DNA of 64,000 nucleotides from positions 2,604,001 through 2,668,000 of the forward strand of contig NC_018214.1 of NCBI RefSeq assembly GCF_000219625.1, read 5' to 3'. Made by a program: the position numbers and the translations under genes. Under the pieces are notes generated by a model, which did no database searches, was not told the origin of the DNA, and was given only the letters and a program-made list of their open reading frames with translations. Positions 35,400-46,069 of this stretch are shown here, one piece after another. Each line of letters starts with the position of its first letter. Within the stretch, counting starts at the first letter, position 1. Source of the stretch: Zymoseptoria tritici IPO323 (lineage: Eukaryota > Ascomycota > Dothideomycetes > Mycosphaerellales > Mycosphaerellaceae).

Positions 35400-38078
35400 G
35401 TCTTTGAGCCACGCGAAAGATGAAGAAGGTAGAGAATTGAAAAAGGCAGCAAAGTTAAAAAGCAAGACACGCACGCGAACCCATGCTTAGCAGGGTAAGC
35501 TACGCGATACGAAAGACATCGATCTTACATCTTTGACGGCGGGACCCTTACTATCCTTGCAGTGCGCGGAGACCCAACCGAGCCTCTGGGGCTGAAGCAT
35601 AGATGAGCCTTACCGGTAATGAACGAACATCCCTCGGCGGTGCTGGCAAGGCTGACGATGGATGTAATAAGAGTCTGCAGGAGAGACTGCTGCGGCAGAC
35701 AACGTGGGAGTTGGTGTGCGTGCTATCTTCGTGGAGATACGCATGGCGCCTACCGATGGTCTGCCGTGGCTGAGGTCGCACGGCGTCAGTTCCAGAGTGT
35801 GACATTTGCTTGACCACTATTAGATCCTGTTGCGAAACGTCCATCCTGGAAACTGTCAAGGAAGCTGCAGCCGAGTGGTGGGGCTACACCTTGTCGGTAG
35901 GGGTCTAGCCGCGCCAGCTGGCGAGGGAGTAGGGCGAGGTACAGCCGCGGCATATACTTCAAATGGACATTTACCACGTTCTGGCGGTGGTGAGTCAGCT
36001 GAGGGTCCTGCTTCGTTGCTCACGAGAGCAGCCATCAAGTCTAAGCTGCGGACGAGCAGTCAGACTGTGACAAAGTTCTGCGCGGAATACTGTCAGCATG
36101 GCGTGGTGTTCGAAGGATGCATGTCAGCTTCCTTCCACTAGGAATCCCTGTAAGGGCTGGCAGCTTTGACGCACGTGAAAGGATTGCACTGGGCGTATTT
36201 TTTCGAGCTTGCCATGACAATCTCTACATCCCAGACTTCATATTCGGGCTGACGGCAGATGCCTGTATTCCGTGGTTATTTTCGACAAGCATCCTGGCAA
36301 ACAAGATCGGTCCGAGTCACTGCCGACGAGCCTCCACCACTCAAAGGCCTGTCCGATCAACCTAAGCGGTGTCAAGAATCTATTTCATCCTCTTGAACAC
36401 GGCGACCGTGGCCCGTTATTATATTGCTGCTGGGATGGCGCATTTGTAGCTGATGATGCACGCCGCAACATTGCAGCATACGACACCGACCACGGCATGC
36501 CACAGTACCTCGCACCAAAGCAAGAACACCCTTTGCTCTCGAGCTGGTGACAACTGCAAGCGGTCGGATCGTGCACAAGCTGCAGTGACGTTGTCCTCCA
36601 GATGCACCAAGTGGAGAGAGCAAAAGCTTGGGTGGTCAGATGCCAAAAAGTATCAAAAAGCTTGAAAGCTGCTGGCAAGCTGAGTATCGTGATGGTCTGG
36701 CCGACACAGTCATGACCGTATCTCCTATCAGCACACAATCAATGTACTTTATCAGCCCATAAAGCCTCCGACTGCACACAACATGCTTTCGCGAGACTGG
36801 CGGGTGGCACAAGTTGATGGTGGTGGAGTTGCCTTGTCAGATCCAGAGCTTCCAGCAGCAGTCTCACGCAGGCGTGACCGTCACGAGCGGTGAGCAGACA
36901 ATGTCGCATGCTCGGTGCATGTTGGCCTCTTTCTTGAGTATCTTTCCGGCGCGTCGGCGAGATGTCCGAGGTACTGCTCTGTCACCTGTTTGGGCTTATG
37001 AAATCTCGACAAGACGATACATAGTGGCTTCGGGGATTGGAAGAGTTTCATGAAACAGTCCATTAGAGCTGAGATGGCTTTTGATCGGTCGTGGCGACAG
37101 TCGATGTCGAAGGTGGCGAGGAAAGGGCAAGAAGGTTGGAAAGGCAGGAGAGCAGAGGGAAAGCTGGCTACGGTGCTCCAGATCCCAAGCTGTCTCTTCG
37201 CTGCTGCGGCAACCTATATGTGCACCCAAGATACCCACTCCCTCCACTGTGCTCCAGCAGCGTTTCTACGACCTTCATCGGCAGGGCTATCGTAACATGA
37301 CTGGGCCCAAACAGAGGATAGTCAGAGGTAGCCGACAACATCTCGGCCAAACATCCAGCAGAGTGGATTCGAGACAGCATGGCATCGATACGAGCAAGCG
37401 GGAGATACTCGTGTTGGCTTCTCGCCAGTTCACCCAAAGGCCAAACAGCAGCAGCGCACCGGCGCAAGGAATGAAAGCGAGCTGCATCCAAAGCTGCAGA
37501 GGGCAAACAAGGTTTCATTCATTACTGACCTCTTTATCAGGTCAAGGCTCTCTCGAAAAGATGTGGCAGAAGAATAGGCACATAAGCTGTCTGCAAAGCC
37601 ACTCTCGCAGCGCAATGCCTTCAGCAGTTCGAACACCGAGCTTTGCAGTGCTCCCAACCGCCTCACGACTTGACGCCTGCGTCCACCATGACCAGAGCAA
37701 TAGGAGACGAACTTGAGCAAATCACGGTCGACCCGGAAGAGCTGTCTGCCGCGCAGTGTCAGCGATGAGGGTCCCATTCCACACAACGAGAAAGATGCCC
37801 AGCTCACGTACCTCCCAAACTTCGCCTCGCGGTCTCCAGACGAAGGCCGAATTGTCAGCACCCTTGCACATTCAGAGTTCGGACTGAATTCCGGGTACTC
37901 GTGTGATCGGTGCTCGTCGCCTCTGTATAAAACCATCGGCGACGCTCTGACATACGTGGGCCCAACGATCAGCTGATTGATCGAGAGGAGCTGCGCACAT
38001 TATCAGCAGCCAGGTCATTCCTGCATCGAGGAAGGGAAACCTGACGCACCCAGATTCGCAATCACCTTTTTACACAAC
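35400..38078. other. 2.7-kb region without a recognisable gene, upstream of ags1
   Basis: Balanced base composition and only short, mutually overlapping frames with no domain, signal peptide plus continuation, or splice-linked exons. It contains the ags1 promoter at its left end. Some frames of 110-210 codons at 37,000-37,940 have random-looking composition (high Cys/Arg/Ser) and I do not support them. A long promoter, a non-coding RNA or a lineage-specific gene are all possible. Confidence 0.4.
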
Positions 38079-38185
38079 CATCATCCTCCACATCCATCAT
38101 CCTCCACATCCATCATCCTCCACATCCATCATCCTCCACATCCATCATCCTCCACATCCATCATCCTCCACATTCATCATCCTTA
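38079..38185. repeat. 16-bp minisatellite, about 6.7 copies
   Basis: The unit catcatcctccacatc is repeated head to tail from 38079, near-perfectly; the sixth copy ends in t instead of c and the seventh breaks off. The unit is not a multiple of three, so a frame that crosses it repeats every 48 bases as His/Pro/Ser-rich sequence; I treat that frame as an artefact. Confidence 0.95.
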
Positions 38186-38558
38186 TCACAGCTGTTGTCA
38201 AGGTCATCGCACCAGGCCAGTCCCTTGTGGCCGCCTTCGCACAATCGGTCTTTCAACGACGTTTCTCGCCAATTTTGTGCTTTCCGGAACAGGCGCGGTC
38301 AAAACACCACCCGTCGCACAGAGGGTCGTTCAGCCAGGTGATGCGAGATCGGCAACAGGGTAGGGCTTTATCGTCGAAGCAGATGCAGACGCTTCCGAGG
38401 CCACAAGCCGAGCAGATCGCAAGGAACAGGGAGAAAATAAGGAATGGTTCGAGAAGCATTGTCGGGGAGGGAGAGGGCAGGGTTGGACTAATGAAAGACG
38501 CCCGATATGCTGATCTGTGCTGAGGAGAGAAAAATTTGGGAGAGCGAGTTGGGCGGGA
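38186..38558. other. Intergenic, no feature seen
   Basis: About 370 bp of balanced composition between the minisatellite and the left end of the Fot1-like element. No gene is supported. Confidence 0.35.
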
Positions 38559-38560
38559 TA

Positions 38561-40763
38561 GAAGTGATGCCGGCGCTGTGCACGGTCCACGCTGTGCACG
38601 CTCTACACGAGAGCATAGCTTTATTCCTTACACCTCTTTAATAGCTAATATCTTTACAACTAGTAGTTACAATAAGGTGTTTAATAGCTTAAATTCATCG
38701 CATCGATTATATCTATTAGCTCTAAGCAGCTTGTAACTTCTGCCTTAATGTTATGCGTATTAGAGGCTAAGAGGATTTAGCTACCTTAGCACCCTTCCTC
38801 CGTAGTAAGGGCACCTTTAACACTACAATTAACACCGGTTTATCTACTGCCTTCCTTCTACAGCGCTTAGCTAGCGAGGCTGTGCGAGCAGAGGCTCTAA
38901 GGTCGGTATTTAGCTATAAATTAGCCTTCTTCGTCTCTAGTAATAAAGCCTTCTTAGCCTTATTCTATAGCGCTTTAGCCTACCTGTCTACCTTAGCTTA
39001 TATCCGCTATTTAGCTCTTAGTTGCTTATCTACCTTCTTCTTAATCGCATTAGCTTCCTTCTGCTACTTCTTAGTAACCTTTAATCGCTCCTTTTTAGCG
39101 AGTTTAGCTATACTAGCCTTTAGTTTAGCTAGTAAATAGAATTAAGCTACTAAACCGGAGGGGATTGTAAGTAGAGGCTTGCTACGCTGTCGTTTCTTCT
39201 TCTTATTCTTAAAGGATTTAGTAAGGCTATAGCACCGGCTCTTAAGGAGCTAATTCTTAGTCTATAGGTAAAGGATCGTATTATTAAGCTTCTATATCCT
39301 TCTCTTGTCTATGTCCTTAACTACCTCGATAACTACGTCCTTTATAAGGGCCCTAAGCTGTCGCTAATTACTTAAAGAGATTACGGAGGTTATAGTGTTA
39401 GATGTACTCGGTCTACTCTTGCTAGTACTGTCCTTATTACTCTCGTACTCGCTCTTCTTATCCTTACTCTTCTTACCCTTGCTCTTCTTACCCTTGTTGT
39501 CCTTACTCTTAACTTTAAACGCCTTTAACACTACGGTAGAGTCGAGTAGTAATAAGCCTGTCTTCTTAAAGGCCTTATAGATATTAGTAATAGTAAACGC
39601 CTTCTAAAAAGCTAGCTAAAACAGACGCTAGAAATTACGCTTACTAGTAGTAGAGCGACCTTCTAAGTAGAAGATCTCCTTCGAGAGGTTAATACTATAG
39701 TAGGTAGACAAAGGGCTAAAGAGACTAATATTAAGAGGCTAGAGCCGGTGTGTTAAGTACGGTAGAAAAACAGCTACGAGGATCCGGTGCTATACGTAGA
39801 AGTTAAGGAACGGCATATTAATATAAGAGCTATAGCTATTAATAATTAGTAGTCTATAACCTCTACTAGCCTTCTCTCTTGTTAGCGGCTCGAATACCTT
39901 CTTTATCTAGTATAAGCTAAGGTTGTTATTAGTCTAGCCGTTCGGTAAGGACGTAAAGAAGGCCTCGTAAATGTCCTCGAAATCTTAGAGCTATAAGGAC
40001 TAGATATTGCCTATCTCTACCTTATAAATAAGACATAGTAGAAGGAACGAGCTATTAGCACAGATATATACTAGTAATGTTATCTACTCGCGGTTGCTAT
40101 CCTACATATATCTAATAAATGCCTTACTTATCTAGTACTCCTTCGTAAAGATCCTCCGGCTCTTTTAAAGTATACTAACTATAAAGCCCTTCTCGTCTAT
40201 ATTATAGGTATTGTACGTCTTAAGGTTATACTTCTTTAGCTTCTCTTCTAGTAGGTCGTAATAGGACTAATACTAATACATAGAGTCTGCCTACTTACGG
40301 TTCTTGTCGAGTAGATTAAGGTATTTAGAATTAATATTAGTATATCTACCGACGAAGGTAGAGATCTATTGCCGGCTCGGTAGGTGCTTTAATATATCTT
40401 TAGCGAACGTGCGAACTATTACCGGAGTCGGTAGAATGCCTCTACGTATAAGTATGTCGATATAGCCTATAAGGGTACGTTCTTATTAGTATAAGAGAAT
40501 TATGTTATTCTCGTCGCGTCGAGCTCTCGAATCGTTAACTTTACGGTACTACCTCGATAACGTACTACGGTAGACGCTATGCTTCGTCGCGATTTCTAAG
40601 ATATTCTTTACCTTCGCCGCTCTTAGCTTGTCTAACGCGTCGTCTATTAGAGCTATAGTTGTAGTGTATTAATTCGTAGAAGTTTAATTGTTTTTATAGA
40701 TTATAACGTATTACGAATTCGAGCGTATATAGCGTAGACCGTGCACAGCGCCGGCATTACTTC
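38561..40763 (-). mobile_element. RIP-mutated Fot1/pogo-family DNA transposon with TIRs
   Basis: 2,203 bp bounded by inverted repeats of about 43 bp (38561-38603 and 40721-40763), beginning gaagtgatgccggcgctg on the left, flanked on both sides by TA (38559-38560 and 40764-40765), the target duplication of this superfamily. The two TIRs differ only by transitions, all towards A/T in the right copy. On the minus strand a transposase can be followed through stops: an N-terminal helix-turn-helix/CENP-B-like part (RAAKVKNILEIATKHSVYRSTLSR near 40,600), the first DDE block YNIDEKGF, then REQITLLVYICAN. A Lys/Ala-rich coiled-coil C-terminus lies near 38,880-39,140. Stops sit at Trp and Gln positions, as RIP predicts. 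It is not functional. Confidence 0.85.
38770..40660 (-). pseudogene. Fot1/pogo DDE transposase remnant
   Basis: Minus-strand frame with stops at expected Trp/Gln sites. Blocks in order: DDALDKLRAAKVKNILEIA (HTH), GILPTPVIVRTFAKDIL with STFVGRYTNI (second DNA-binding helix-turn-helix), LLEEKLKKYNLKTYNTYNID EKGF (first catalytic Asp), RYMQDSNRE-type region before CANSSFL, and a basic coiled-coil tail. It belongs to the Tc1/mariner-pogo clade. Boundaries are approximate because there is no intact frame. Confidence 0.75.
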
Positions 40764-40976
40764 TACCGGGCTACGAAAGTTGCCTCTCGATATTTAGGGC
40801 CTTCCTTAAAAACGCTAGAAGTGTCTATACTCTAAGTAAACAGCTAATTTACGTCTAGCTAGACTTCTCCCTACTAATCCTCGTTATAGCTTACATTTTC
40901 CTATATTATATCCGGTGCTTAGGCTATATTATAAACGCTCTAGCCTCGAAAATGTATAGCGAAAGCCTTATAGACC
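40764..40976. other. AT-rich spacer between two transposons
   Basis: About 210 bp of AT-rich, TpA-rich sequence between the Fot1-like and Harbinger-like elements. No frame or TIR. It was probably also RIP-mutated and may be part of an older, unrecognised repeat. Confidence 0.35.
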
Positions 40977-41528
40977 TAAGGGTGCGTATACCTAGAGGCT
41001 ATTAATAGGTTATTACTTAAAATTAGTTAATTAATAACCTTATTTTCCTTCTAGGGCAATAACGAGCTCGTAAGTGAACGCTTCCGTTATTAATATAGAG
41101 TCTTACGGATATTACCGTCTTAGCTATTACTTACCTTATATTATATCGTATTATTTACGCGTTCCTTACTCGTATTATATACTACCTCTTTAAATGCTAT
41201 AGATCCGCTCTAATCTATAGTCGTTGTTAGTGTTGCCGCTACTATTACCCTTACTCTTACGACTATACTCCTTCTAATAGATCGACGCCTTCGCTAGTAT
41301 AAACCCTCCGGTATTATCGAGACGCTCGTAGATCTAACTACCGGTATAAAGGAGGCATTTAGGTACTTATATAGACCGGAAGAGTATTATTACTATACTA
41401 CTCGTATACGGTAACCGGTATTAAGGAAGTTCGTAAAGAAATTAGAGGCTCGTAGAGTAGGAGGAGAACGAGCTAGTAGTATATTAGTCGCCGAGTAGGT
41501 AGTAATATTCCTCGATTTCCTAGCCTAT

Positions 41529-41711
41529 TGTCAGGGTTCGACCGGAGGTAGCTCCGGCTCGAACTGGCGACCTTTGGATTCAGGGTGGGGCGCTTTACCA
41601 CTAGGCCAAAAGGAAGCCAAAAGACCAGAATCTGAGAACGGGTTCTCAGATTGCGCCCCACTTTTAAGGCTTGGCAAAGCCAAGCTGAACCCCAAGGCAC
41701 AGCCTGTGACA
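41529..41711 (-). repeat. LTR copy of the TRIM-like element (3' LTR by inferred orientation)
   Basis: 183 bp; identical to 41884-42066 except for A instead of G at 41603. On the minus strand it contains TGGCCTAGTGGT (41608-41597), close to a Pol III A box, then AGTTCGAGCC (41565-41556), close to a B box, at tRNA-like spacing, with CCTGAATCC between, as in an anticodon arm. It also holds a 24-bp inverted repeat with 11-bp arms (41629-41652). Confidence 0.85.
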
Positions 41712-41883
41712 TTACCTCTCCGCCCCCCCCTCGCCTCTTAACAGGTCACAAGAGGGGGTACTACACATCCTCTCCGGATGTATAGATTAGAGTGCCTTAA
41801 AAGCAGCCCCCACGCATGCAATGCACGCGTGTGAGCCGAGGCGCATCCAACAACGCACTACGACCCTTTTTGTTCTCAGATTA

Positions 41884-42066
41884 TGTCAGGGTTCGACCGG
41901 AGGTAGCTCCGGCTCGAACTGGCGACCTTTGGATTCAGGGTGGGGCGCTTTACCACTGGGCCAAAAGGAAGCCAAAAGACCAGAATCTGAGAACGGGTTC
42001 TCAGATTGCGCCCCACTTTTAAGGCTTGGCAAAGCCAAGCTGAACCCCAAGGCACAGCCTGTGACA
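41884..42066 (-). repeat. LTR copy of the TRIM-like element (5' LTR by inferred orientation)
   Basis: 183 bp, the partner of 41529-41711 at a distance of 355 bp. The A-box-like motif reads TGGCCCAGTGGT here, a better match for an unmutated form. The adjoining internal bases (41883 downward, minus strand TAATCTGAGAAC) stand where a primer-binding site should lie. Confidence 0.85.
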
Positions 42067-43249
42067 CCTATAACCTATTAATTCGTTAGCTCCGAAGGTA
42101 GTATTAATACTTATACGCTACGTTCTCGACTATTATTAAACGTATTAGTAAGATCGTATGTCTTATAAGCTAGGAGTATATCCGAATACCGAATTAACTA
42201 GACCTACCGCCGCTATATAAAAAGATAATAAAGAAGAGTAAGGAAGATATAAGCTGCTCGAGCTATAGTAAGTTTAGCTAGTTTAAGGATATAGTTAGAG
42301 CGCTAGATAGTACGTTATTGCCGATAAATCTACCTAAGGATATTAGAGGGGTATAGAATAGTAGGAAGGGATTTATCTTATAGAACGTAATAGCCGCTTA
42401 TAACTTCGACATAGTGTTCTAGTATATAATAGTCGGATATAAGGGCTCTACGCCGGACGGTGTTATCTTAAAGAAGGTATATAAAGATAGCTTCGACGTA
42501 CTACCTAGCAAATACTTCCTCGCCGATAGTAGATACTCTACGCTTAACAATCGACTACTCGTACTATACGAGAGTACGCGATATTATATCCGTAAGTAGA
42601 GGGTAGCGTAGCGCCGGCCTAAGACGAAGAAAGAGCTATATAATGTACGCTATATATAACTACGTAATATTGTCGAGCGAGTCTTTAGTATTATTAAGAA
42701 GCGCTTCTTAATCCTCGCTTAAGGAGCATACTCTAGTTATAGTATCCGTAAATAGACGCGGTTTATTCTCTACTACTTCGTCCTTTATAACTTTATCCTT
42801 TTAAGTAGTAATTAGCTACTAGACTCGGAGCCCTTCCTAATAGACGTATACGGCGATAAGGATAGCGACGATAATATAGAGGGCGAGGAGGATATACTCG
42901 ATAACCTTAGTAATATCGGTAGTAGGGCGAGGGTACGGTTTCGTAATAAAATAGCTACTACGATATAGAATAATTATTAAGAATACTACTAAAAGTACGG
43001 ATTAGATATAAGGAGGGCTTAAAGTAGTAACGAAATCTAACTAGTTTTTAAGAGAGAGCTTAAAACGTCGTTATTATAAAGAATGTACGTATTTGCTAGT
43101 TAATTTACTTATTTCTTACGCTAAGGCTATTATACCGACCTCTCGTCGAAGAGGTAGAAATTCTCGTACTTATAGATAGAGGATAGGGCGGAGTACGAAG
43201 ATACCGCGAGATACGGAAGCTTAAAACTAGCGCGAAAAATAGAGCTACT

Positions 43250-44785
43250 CCTTCCTAATTAGGCCGAATATTAGTAAATTCTTAAAACACCTCTATATAA
43301 ATCGATAGTATAGCCCTAATTTTCTCTTACGCGAGCTCTAGTAAGGCATTCGACGGTATCTTTATATCCTATATGCTCCTCTATTATTAAAACTACTAAA
43401 TAGTTAGTAAGCAGATTCTTATACCTTAACTTTTTAGACTTACTCCTTTAACTCTATACCCTTTATTAACGACGGTAACTATATAGTCTACCTTATATCT
43501 TACTAATTAGCGGTAGCGGCTACGACTAAGCGAATAGCGAGAAGGTATAACTCTACTATAGATAGGTATGTTACGCCGGAGTATAGTAAGGTAGAGGGTT
43601 ATCGACCGGCGCTAGCGTAGACGGTTTAGCCTATATAATAATCCTTCGTAGATATAATCTAAGGCGGCTACTAAGTTCGTCCTTAAGGAGCAGTTTAGCG
43701 GTAACGGCGAGGTTTAGATTGTCCGCTAACTTTATTAAAAGTAGGTCCTTATCCTTATTACTTACGCCCTTAAGTATAACCTTATTACGAGCTAGCCGCT
43801 TACTAAGAAGCTCTAATAGCGTCTTGTCCTTTAACTCGTCCTACTTAGCTATAGTAGCTATAGTCTATTATAGTAGCGTTATAAGCTTATAGATAGCCTT
43901 AAGGTATTCCGGATCTACCTTGTTTATAACCTACTACTTCCTTACCTTAGAGCGGCGCTCTTTATTAGTATTTGCTAACTACGTAGCTCTTAGAACCTGC
44001 TCGTCCTCGGGATCTACCTCTTCGACCTTATCGTCCGAACTAGCCGCTCCGCGAGCGCCGCCGCCGCCCTTATTATCGTTCTCGCCCTTATCCTCCGACT
44101 CCTTATCTTCTAACTCCTTAGCCTCCGACTTAGTAAGCCGAGTACCCCCTCTACCGCCGACCGCGTGCTCTCTAGTAGCTACGTTAGTACTAATAATAGT
44201 ATAGATCGAGAGTAAGAAAGAAGGGTAAGAGTCTCTAAATAGCTCGTACGTAGGGTACGCCTTATAATAAGTATCCTTAACGGACTTATCTACCGGCTTT
44301 ATAGGGTAGCTGTTCTATCTACTAATGTACTTTAAGTAAGTAGCATATAGTATATATGCCTTCTTTATTTTACGCTACTTATTAGTAAGCATCTCTTACT
44401 TAAGGAAGCGCTTAAAGCGGTCGTATATCTTCTCGGTAACTAGACGTAGATGCTTCGCTAAGAAGGTATTATTATACTATATTATACCTCTATTCTTAAG
44501 CCTTAATAACGCCTCTAGCATTACGTTAATATAGTTATCTTCCTACCGGCTAATAGCTAGATACTCGGAGCTATATATATACCCCCTTAGCTTCTACTTC
44601 TTCTACTTCTTCTTACTCTTACTAGACGACGCTACTAGCTCCTTATTATTACTAGACTCGTTCTTACGCTTCTTACTAGACGATACTAGCTCCTTAGACC
44701 TTCCCTTACCCTTCTTCCTTAGTGTCGGCGCTAGTAGTATTATAATAGATAGATAAGAGCCTATAAGACTATAATATAAGGGCAA
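43250..44785 (-). pseudogene. Myb/SANT-like accessory protein of the Harbinger element
   Basis: Minus-strand frame with stops at Trp positions. After a Ser/Lys-rich start (KELVSSSKKRKNESSNNKEL, about 44,700-44,640) it reads EDNYINVMLEALLRLKNRG (about 44,530), NNTFLAKHLRLVTEKIYDRF, LTNK*RKIKKAYILYATYLKYIS, the tri-helical Myb/SANT-like pattern found beside Harbinger transposases. An acidic, low-complexity part lies towards 44,000. In other Harbinger elements the partner protein helps the transposase bind DNA. Not functional here. The downstream limit is uncertain. Confidence 0.65.
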
Positions 44786-45058
44786 TACGTAGTAGTAATA
44801 CGCGACGTAAACAAGCGCGATAGGGCTTCTACACGGGCTACGATAACAGCAATTAATAGACTATAGAGTTCGTTAATTTATAAACCTATAGGACGGCTAT
44901 ATACTAACTTAAAATAGTTAGCGAGCAGCGACAGCGAGCTCGTGAACAATAAACGACTTCTTTAACGACATTGGTAAGTGAACGAGTTGCAGAATGGTCG
45001 GTTATTTGGTCTTGGCGCTCAATAACCTATTAACAGCCTCTAGGTATACGCACCCTGA

Positions 45059-45599
45059 TGCCCGGTCGACGGACGTTCTGCAGGGTCAGCCCAGGAGGTC
45101 CACAGATGAGAGTTCTTGAAGACAAGGCGAACGCATCACGACTTGCTGTGAAGCCTGTTGAAGTTGCAACTATCGGAACCAGGTAGACTCTCCGACCGGC
45201 AATCGTACCAGTGCTACCGGCAGCCGTCTAACGCCGACTTGAAGGGAGGCAAATATGCTTTTTGCGTGCTGTAAAACGATGATGCTCAAGATGTTCTCCT
45301 CGTTGAATAGCTGCTGCAGCCGGCTGGTCGTCCGGATCTGCTGTCCAAGAAGACAGCATAGCCTAATCTCAAATGATGCAGACCTAACAGCATTTTTCGT
45401 GCGTCGATGAAGACGTTAAAGTGAGTCTTGGTCTGACATCGGGCAAGGTGAAGTCGGGGCGAAGATACGGACACCCAAACGTATCAAAAAGTCGGAAGCA
45501 CCACTAGCGCCCTCTCACAGCTCACATCTCTATCACCACTGTCGACCACCGCACCTTGCACCTCCACCACCATCGTCAATCACACCCACACCGCCCACC
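45059..45599. other. Intergenic with the SmG promoter
   Basis: Composition returns sharply to balanced right after the Harbinger TIR. A C/A-rich leader precedes the SmG start (about 45,540-45,599). No gene was recognised. Confidence 0.4.
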
Positions 45600-46069
45600 A
45601 TGCCTCAAGCACAACCCGAACTCAAAAAGGTACGTCCACCTCCCTCCTCCAGTCACGCGCACTCCACCACCGACCCTTTCCCCCATGCGCCGGGCAGAAA
45701 CTTTCCACCAAAACTAACCCTTACGATAGTACCTCGACAAACGCGTTGAAGTCCAACTCAACGGCTCCCGAAAAGTCATGGGTACTCTCCGTGGATACGA
45801 CGTAAGTTCTTCATCCCTCCCTTCCTTTTCCTCACCACTCCGCTCTCCCCTCGGCTCCGCCGCACTCGCTAACGCTCCTGCGCGCACAGGTCTTCCTGAA
45901 CATCGTCCTCGACGAAGCCACCGAGTCGAAACCCAACGCGGAAAAAGTGCGATTGGGAATGTGCGTCATTCGCGGGAATTCCGTCGTCATGATGGAGGCG
46001 CTGGATCGGATTGGAGGAGGAGGAGGGGGAGGGGGTGATCATCGGGGTGGAGGTGGAGGGAGGGATTAG
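45600..46069 (+). CDS. SMX2: Small nuclear ribonucleoprotein G (SmG) with glycine-rich tail
   Basis: Three exons: 45600-45629, 45730-45801, 45890-46069; introns of 100 and 88 nt; all phase 0; 93 residues. The Sm fold is clear: PELKKYLDKRVEVQLNGSRK, VMGTLRGYDVFLNIVLDEA (Sm1) and LGMCVIRGNSVVMMEALD (Sm2). SmG is one of seven proteins in the ring around the U-rich Sm site of spliceosomal snRNAs. The odd part is the end: after the usual C-terminus it carries about 18 residues of almost pure glycine with HRG and GRD, absent from the 76-80 residue family norm as I know it. The tail is in the same exon, so a missed splice is unlikely but not excluded. Confidence 0.93.

Follow-up and report, generated by a model that had tools for sequence, protein, structure and literature searches.

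TRIMs with tRNA-like LTRs have been described as Helenus elements, which comprise many fungal families (Kojima 2024; PMC10886601). The fungal hosts named in the main text of that paper are the Pucciniales and three Agaricomycetes, i.e. only Basidiomycota, and "ascomyc" has no match in this main text (PMC10886601). The PBSs of the fungal Helenus mostly match tRNA anticodon loops and Copia elements were suggested as partners; the author reported that the PBS was not found to be complementary to the tRNA-like part of the LTR, and Pol III transcription is unproven for these elements too (PMC10886601). Self-priming is known from Ty3/Gypsy elements of the Tf1/sushi type, which, as listed in excerpts of the literature, include Tf1, Tf2, Tj1, Maggy, Skippy, CfT-1 and others, many of them fungal. 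For Tf1, the excerpt used here states that the first 11 bases are complementary to the PBS and that cleavage occurs after base 11 (PMC7175516). In the excerpt of the paper on the bivalve biv-TRIM no clear priming mechanism is proposed, self-priming is mentioned for other elements, and "polymerase III" gives no match (PMC6934838).

We report a complete TRIM of 538 bp, with two 183-bp LTRs, a 172-bp core and a 5-bp target duplication, in a 64,000-nucleotide stretch of DNA from Zymoseptoria tritici (the whole stretch analysed is referred to as the window; Table 1). A 505-aa protein encoded in the window is 99% identical to one of Z. tritici. The PBS of the TRIM matches a primer sequence in its own LTR; where subfamilies differ, PBS and primer differ concordantly. 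Local Gypsy elements have this layout as well. We consider it probable, with moderate confidence, that the TRIM is self-primed, likely to be transcribed by Pol III, and moved by Tf1-like Gypsy elements.

Specifically, the LTRs have TG...CA ends and are 99% identical, with one difference in 183 positions; this is of the RIP type CpA>TpA (RIP causes C-to-T changes at CpA on either strand). Immediately ahead of the LTR at 41529-41711, the minus strand carries the purine run GAGGCGAGGGGGGGGCGGAGAGGTAA. The sense strand of the TRIM is thus the minus strand, so that the element is oriented leftwards and has its 5' LTR at 41884-42066. The copy has two short LTRs, a PBS and a polypurine tract, is gene-less and is shorter than approximately 1000 bp, as TRIMs are. 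The two 183-bp direct repeats, the TG...CA ends, the 172-bp core, the purine-rich run before one LTR and the perfect CCTAT duplication, all of which were part of the preliminary description, were recovered in the sequence. The surrounding part of the window (approximately 38000-46000) is AT-rich, with a G+C content of 0.38-0.48 vs approximately 0.54 in its surroundings, and is probably a RIP-mutated repeat region.

Table 1. Features of the TRIM in the window (positions refer to the window) and loci of its family in the genome
Feature	Position	Strand	Basis
Complete TRIM, 538 bp	41529..42066	-	direct-repeat and sequence comparison
Target-site duplication, element 5' side, + strand CCTAT	42067..42071	.	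flank comparison
Target-site duplication, element 3' side, + strand CCTAT	41524..41528	.	flank comparison
5' LTR, 183 bp	41884..42066	-	direct repeat
3' LTR, 183 bp, 1 difference vs 5' LTR	41529..41711	-	direct repeat
TATA-like TTAAAA, ~28 nt upstream of primer arm; start of a 15-bp block with no transversion column	42017..42022	-	role inferred
Left arm of U3/R palindrome, sequence = PBS	41997..42007	-	arm comparison
Self-primer arm GTTCTCAGATT, predicted RNA 5' end	41984..41994	-	start inferred
A box of 5' LTR, TGGCCCAGTGG	41953..41963	-	consensus match
B box of 5' LTR, GTTCGAGCC	41911..41919	-	consensus match
U5 hairpin CCGGAG-CTAC-CTCCGG, overlapping last B-box bases	41897..41912	-	predicted fold
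Primer-binding site (PBS) AATCTGAGAAC, one T (41883) between LTR and PBS	41872..41882	-	complementary to self-primer arm
172-bp core, PBS side to polypurine tract	41712..41883	-	interval between LTRs
Polypurine tract	41712..41737	-	sequence
Left palindrome arm in 3' LTR	41642..41652	-	sequence
Primer-arm copy in 3' LTR	41629..41639	-	sequence
A box in 3' LTR, TGGCCTAGTGG	41598..41608	-	consensus match
B box in 3' LTR, GTTCGAGCC	41556..41564	-	consensus match
LTR + core loci	C5 (window), C7:2596372-2596902, C18:50340-51082, C9:1398460-1399264, C4:1918492, C4:691635-693073		
Solo LTRs	C13:62257, C13:1048622, C7:1843037, C7:806931, C7:1835730, C1:6016131		
Partial copies	C9:1391392, C14:751847 (latter known from search match alone)		

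The genome was searched with three queries, namely the complete TRIM, its LTR and one diverged LTR, and the resulting counts are lower bounds. There are at least six LTR-core-LTR loci, six solo LTRs and two partial copies (Table 1); the C9:1398460 copy is truncated on one side. The 5-bp target duplication is exact in 10 of the 11 insertions with both ends readable and agrees at 4/5 positions in the eleventh (C1). For this comparison the boundaries of three RIP-damaged solo LTRs had been placed manually beforehand, and the flanks of C1 and C4:691635 were compared by eye. The preliminary description had suggested counting full elements, solo LTRs and 5-bp duplications in this genome, and the outcome bears out its TRIM reading: LTR-core-LTR units recur at six loci, and the solo LTRs carry 5-bp duplications and have neither poly(A) nor simple-repeat tails.

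Several loci have structures of their own. At C18:50340-51082 a composite LTR-TAAA-LTR-core-LTR is present inside one 5-bp duplication (CGGTT), and its first LTR is of type A while the other two LTRs and the PBS are of type B (see below), as if two subfamilies had been joined before integration. The C9:1398460-1399264 locus is a tandem array (partial LTR-core-LTR-core-LTR). Within the 5' LTR of the TRIM copy at C4, an 873-bp insertion (C4:691695-692567) that ends in (AAAC)n and has a 13-bp duplication looks like a non-LTR retroelement or SINE. The copies in the window and at C7:2596372-2596902 have the same duplication, ATAGG, then CT, and different flanks.

The preliminary description overlooked that the PBS AATCTGAGAAC (41882-41872) is complementary at 11/11 nt to GTTCTCAGATT in the element's own LTR (41994-41984). 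This self-primer arm is located approximately 30 nt upstream of the A box, and the layout is that of Tf1-type self-priming. A pattern consisting of the PBS word and the next bases, with up to two mismatches (<=2), has seven sites in the genome, all of them in the TRIM family, and the reversed control has none. The PBS matches its own 5' LTR arm at 11/11 positions in five of the six testable units and at 10/11 in the C7 unit, where the mismatch is of RIP type; in a seventh unit (C9 unit 1), without a readable 5' arm, it is the 3' LTR arm that matches the PBS 11/11. Swapping PBSs and arms among the six units gives an exact match in 4 of 30 pairs, and the mean match drops from 10.83 to 9.53.

Moreover, the primer arm and the arm just upstream of it form a palindrome, in which 216 of 220 cells are paired in 20 LTRs (20 of the 21 LTR matches, a 59-bp piece being excluded; all 20 fit the search pattern). 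At its sixth pair the 20 LTRs have GC (4), CG (3), TA (6), AT (2), GT (1), TG (2) and CA (2). A G/C transversion separates type A (AATCTGAGAAC) from type B (AATTTCAGAAC), with matching changes in both arms and the PBS, and the variant of type D (AATCTTAGAAC), present in C13:62257, is matched in both arms. The C13:62257 LTR appears by eye to be little touched by RIP, and since it is a solo LTR type D has no PBS. Each arm has a single transversion column, and the two columns are partners. A compensatory reading of all PBS variants was also considered and dropped for C7, C9, C4a and C4b; these were not counted as independent compensation because RIP can hit both arms alike. The covariation that we regard as firm rests on A vs B (PBS and both arms) and on D (arms only) and, since the 20 LTRs are related, represents few events.

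RNA folds were predicted for the segment that begins with the primer arm and extends 60 nt beyond the PBS, with an assumed start and no shuffled control. The mean pairing probability between primer and PBS was 0.88-0.99 in 6/6 unit RNAs, and the predicted primer:PBS helix encloses the tRNA-like region and the U5 hairpin; terminal helices of 11 perfect base pairs are, however, readily obtained in such predictions. In Tf1, a U5 hairpin is reportedly required.

With respect to candidate helpers, six Gypsy stretches were picked for open frames or diversity from 150 scored RVT_1 matches. Four of the six have readable LTR pairs and represent three families; no LTR pair was found at the fetched loci L073 and L100. 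In all three families the PBS is complementary to the element's own LTR and starts one or two bases past the LTR end, with a length of 10 nt in L071, 9 nt in L072 and 10 nt in L099, for which matching shuffles numbered 0/5000, 22/5000 and 0/5000, respectively. One of the four elements with LTR pairs, L098, a RIP-damaged copy of the L099 family, gave no self-complementary PBS match. Reverse transcriptase, RNase H, integrase zinc-binding and SH3_Tf2-1 domains are present in L071, and its integrase core match is below the Pfam cut-off. In the LTR start of L072 (on C18) there are two tandem copies of GCTCGAACTCGCGACCTTCTGGTT, the antisense strand of which resembles, by eye, the part of the TRIM around its tRNA-like B box. 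The genome searches revealed no autonomous element with the LTR or PBS sequence of the TRIM, and the PBS-word search returned TRIM copies only (seven sites; six of these seven in a second search). As these searches did not detect the LTR or the PBS word of the TRIM in any Gypsy element, a Gypsy helper is proposed solely on mechanistic grounds.

The consensus sequences of the two internal promoter motifs are TRGYNNARNNG (A box) and GWTCRANNC (B box). The A box (TGGCCCAGTGG in the 5' LTR, TGGCCTAGTGG in the 3' LTR) and the B box (GTTCGAGCC) match these exactly and are spaced by 33 nt, which is tRNA-like; the A-box-like and B-box-like motifs noted earlier, on the same strand and at tRNA spacing, therefore stand. 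When the LTR was dinucleotide-shuffled 20000 times, an A+B pair at 25-70 nt on either strand arose in 23 shuffles; throughout the 64-kb window such a pair occurs only in the two LTRs. The anticodon-arm-like sequence that accompanied these motifs in the preliminary description is unsupported as a structure because no tRNA fold is left. The Rfam tRNA model had no match at E<=5 in 41500-42100, nor at E<=10 in three sister loci, and ARAGORN predicted 0 tRNAs in the window; the suggested Infernal/tRNAscan-type check of the LTR was hence negative. No 5S family was among the Rfam matches at E<=5 in 41500-42100. A match to the L2 leader (E 0.02, 19 bits vs a cut-off of 37.8) as well as SCARNA20 and other Rfam matches were below the gathering scores and were taken as chance.

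For conservation we used 16 LTRs, 77-100% identical to the window LTR (four of the 20 rows were dropped as truncated or deleted). Transversions are present in 18 of the 183 columns of the LTR, and in 0/31 columns of the A-box block, 0/16 of the B-box block and 0/15 of the TATA-like block. The probability of 0 transversions in the A+B blocks (approximately 46-47 columns) is 0.004, for blocks that were delimited after inspection of the data; for the core A and B boxes alone the transversion-free state is not significant (P 0.11). The predicted start precedes the A box by 31 nt in the window copy and by approximately 20 nt in the C7:1843037 copy; a distance of approximately 30 nt is longer than usual for tRNA genes.

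The sense strand of the TRIM has five T4 runs, two of which are between the predicted start and the A box, and no run of T5 or longer. By comparison, T5 or longer is present <=50 nt downstream of 8/8 distinct tRNA genes, in two cases with a T4 before the T5. These genes come from 15 stretches submitted to ARAGORN, i.e. two of the 20 Rfam-tRNA stretches (the other 18 being a repeat) and 13 finds of a pattern in which TTTT after the B box was a requirement; ARAGORN gave nine calls, two of which are one gene. Hence, a clear Pol III terminator is missing from the TRIM, and Pol III could be halted by the T4 runs that come early; since some tRNA genes have a T4 ahead of the T5, T4 may perhaps be leaky in this genome. 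On balance, Pol III transcription of the TRIM is likely; the missing clear terminator and the rather long distance from the predicted start to the A box count against it.

The repeat in these Rfam-tRNA stretches is a second tRNA-like sequence, of high copy number and RIP-mutated (L074-L076, L078, L080-L097; e.g. C17:11674-11745), with, by eye, a Cys-like anticodon ACA; it accounts for 18 of the 20 stretches examined. It sits in a larger Copia-associated repeat, and at several copies a Copia RVT_2 match is located approximately 0.8-0.9 kb away on the opposite strand. There are two 3' variants, one of which has an 18-bp hairpin.

We propose the following cycle for the TRIM. TFIIIC and Pol III would act through the A and B boxes, which are located in R-U5 of the 5' LTR, and the RNA would start at or near GTTCTCAGATT, the first 11 nt of which are predicted from the sequence to fold back onto the PBS AATCTGAGAAC. 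By analogy with Tf1, a Gypsy reverse transcriptase supplied in trans would cut after nt 11 with its RNase H and free the primer, the second strand would be primed at the polypurine tract, and the Gypsy integrase would insert the DNA, leaving 5-bp duplications. Since the primer would be copied into the PBS during synthesis of the plus strand, PBS and LTR would be expected to change together.

A bolder extension, which we regard as doubtful, is that the same 11-nt word has three jobs: RNA 5' end and primer, template of the PBS in every cycle, and part of a terminator hairpin acting in the 3' LTR only. The left arm and the primer arm would form a hairpin before a T4 run in the 3' LTR, where Pol III would stop; in the 5' LTR it would read through the same T4 because the left arm is outside the transcript there. 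If true, a Pol III LTR element would thereby be able to combine read-through with termination, and the retention of the palindrome in the 20 compared LTRs would be accounted for. That the upstream arm could act in termination is the boldest and least supported part of our proposal.

Other explanations are conceivable. In favour of tandem tRNA-derived SINEs, the alternative named in the preliminary description, 6 of the 12 complete insertions are single LTR units with their own duplications, and composite and tandem arrays are present. However, there is no A-rich or simple-repeat tail behind any of the 21 LTR matches of the family examined, the duplication length is constant (5 bp), and a core with PBS and polypurine tract is present at six loci; the sole simple-repeat junction (C4:692567) is part of the foreign insertion of 873 bp, which has a separate 13-bp duplication. 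The TRIM copies are not SINEs because A-rich tails are absent and, given also the fixed-length duplications and the core with its PBS and polypurine tract, we dropped this explanation as next to impossible. The element might instead be an ordinary Helenus primed by a host tRNA, with the LTR complement being a coincidence or having another role. A site for a tRNA 3' end would begin with TGG, and the PBS has no initial TGG. Its match to the own LTR is 11/11, and an equal or longer match was seen in only 1/5000 shuffled LTRs for the window copy and 0/5000 for the C18 copy; moreover, a C/G transversion distinguishes subfamily A from subfamily B in the PBS and in the LTR alike. Host-tRNA priming is thus very unlikely here, even if most of the known fungal Helenus use tRNA anticodon loops and several families tRNA 3' ends (PMC10886601).

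More weight is due to the possibility that the TRIM is self-primed and transcribed by Pol II, in which case the A and B boxes would be a relic or would mimic a tRNA for packaging; we consider this rather unlikely. A TATA-like TTAAAA is located approximately 28 nt before the primer arm in a block that is as transversion-free as the boxes, and T4 runs, some of them early, are the only such runs on the sense strand, vs T5 or longer in 8/8 distinct tRNA genes. In addition, the A+B pair is absent from the sense strand of the three self-primed Gypsy families, and self-priming is therefore independent of these boxes. Against Pol II, both boxes are exact consensus matches at tRNA spacing and their blocks lack transversion columns in the 16 LTRs, and the C/T-rich stretch that precedes the primer in all three Gypsy families is, by eye, missing in the TRIM. 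Taken together, our data favour the self-primed TRIM with probable Pol III transcription and Gypsy helpers.

The preliminary description was right about a TRIM with tRNA-like motifs. It knew of no fungal element described in exactly this way; Helenus, with its many fungal families, is already in print (PMC10886601). Neither a self-primed TRIM nor a Helenus in Ascomycota is the subject of any of the titles and abstract openings listed from the open-licence literature, and a self-priming version of a tRNA-promoter TRIM is, as far as could be found, undescribed; annotations of Z. tritici may already include the element as a plain TRIM. In Helenus, tRNA-type promoters go with host-tRNA primers. 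A self-primed ascomycete version would show that non-autonomous LTR elements can freely recombine their promoters and their modes of priming. Self-priming relies on the nucleotides at the very start of the RNA, and a precise Pol III 5' end would suit it. Tf1-like Gypsy machinery would act in trans on RNAs with no detected shared LTR sequence, and recognition by the helper would then rest on structure, i.e. the primer:PBS helix and the U5 hairpin, which offers a testable answer to how helpers recognise TRIMs.

On the best reading, the TRIM works like Tf1 in its priming and probably like Helenus and Cassandra in its promoter. Compared with known systems, it resembles Cassandra of plants in that, on the best reading, both are TRIMs with the Pol III promoter of a small-RNA gene in their LTRs; Cassandra has a 5S rRNA promoter, whereas the fungal element has tRNA-type boxes and no 5S match. 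Like biv-TRIM it seems to lack a conventional tRNA PBS, but it has a specific self-primer with subfamily covariation. It shares with Helenus/TRIMp3 the short TRIM structure, a tRNA-like sequence with A and B boxes in both LTRs, solo LTRs, a tRNA fold that is mostly non-functional and, as in fungal Helenus, 5-bp duplications. It differs from Helenus in its ascomycete host, in a PBS that is complementary to its own LTR, the sequence with which it was compared, and probably not to a tRNA, in the location of the PBS complement just upstream of the tRNA-like part, and in having Gypsy rather than Copia as the likely partner; membership in Helenus is plausible, with tRNA derivation seen at the motif level only. 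With Tf1/sushi elements it has in common that approximately 11 nt of the LTR, at the expected RNA 5' end, are complementary to an LTR-adjacent PBS and that the predicted structure joins primer and PBS. Since it is 538 bp long and its 172-bp core is too short for reverse transcriptase and integrase genes, the TRIM is not itself a Tf1/sushi element; unlike these it is gene-less and carries tRNA-type promoter motifs, and its primer arm is part of a U3/R palindrome that, by eye, is present in none of the three local Gypsy families.
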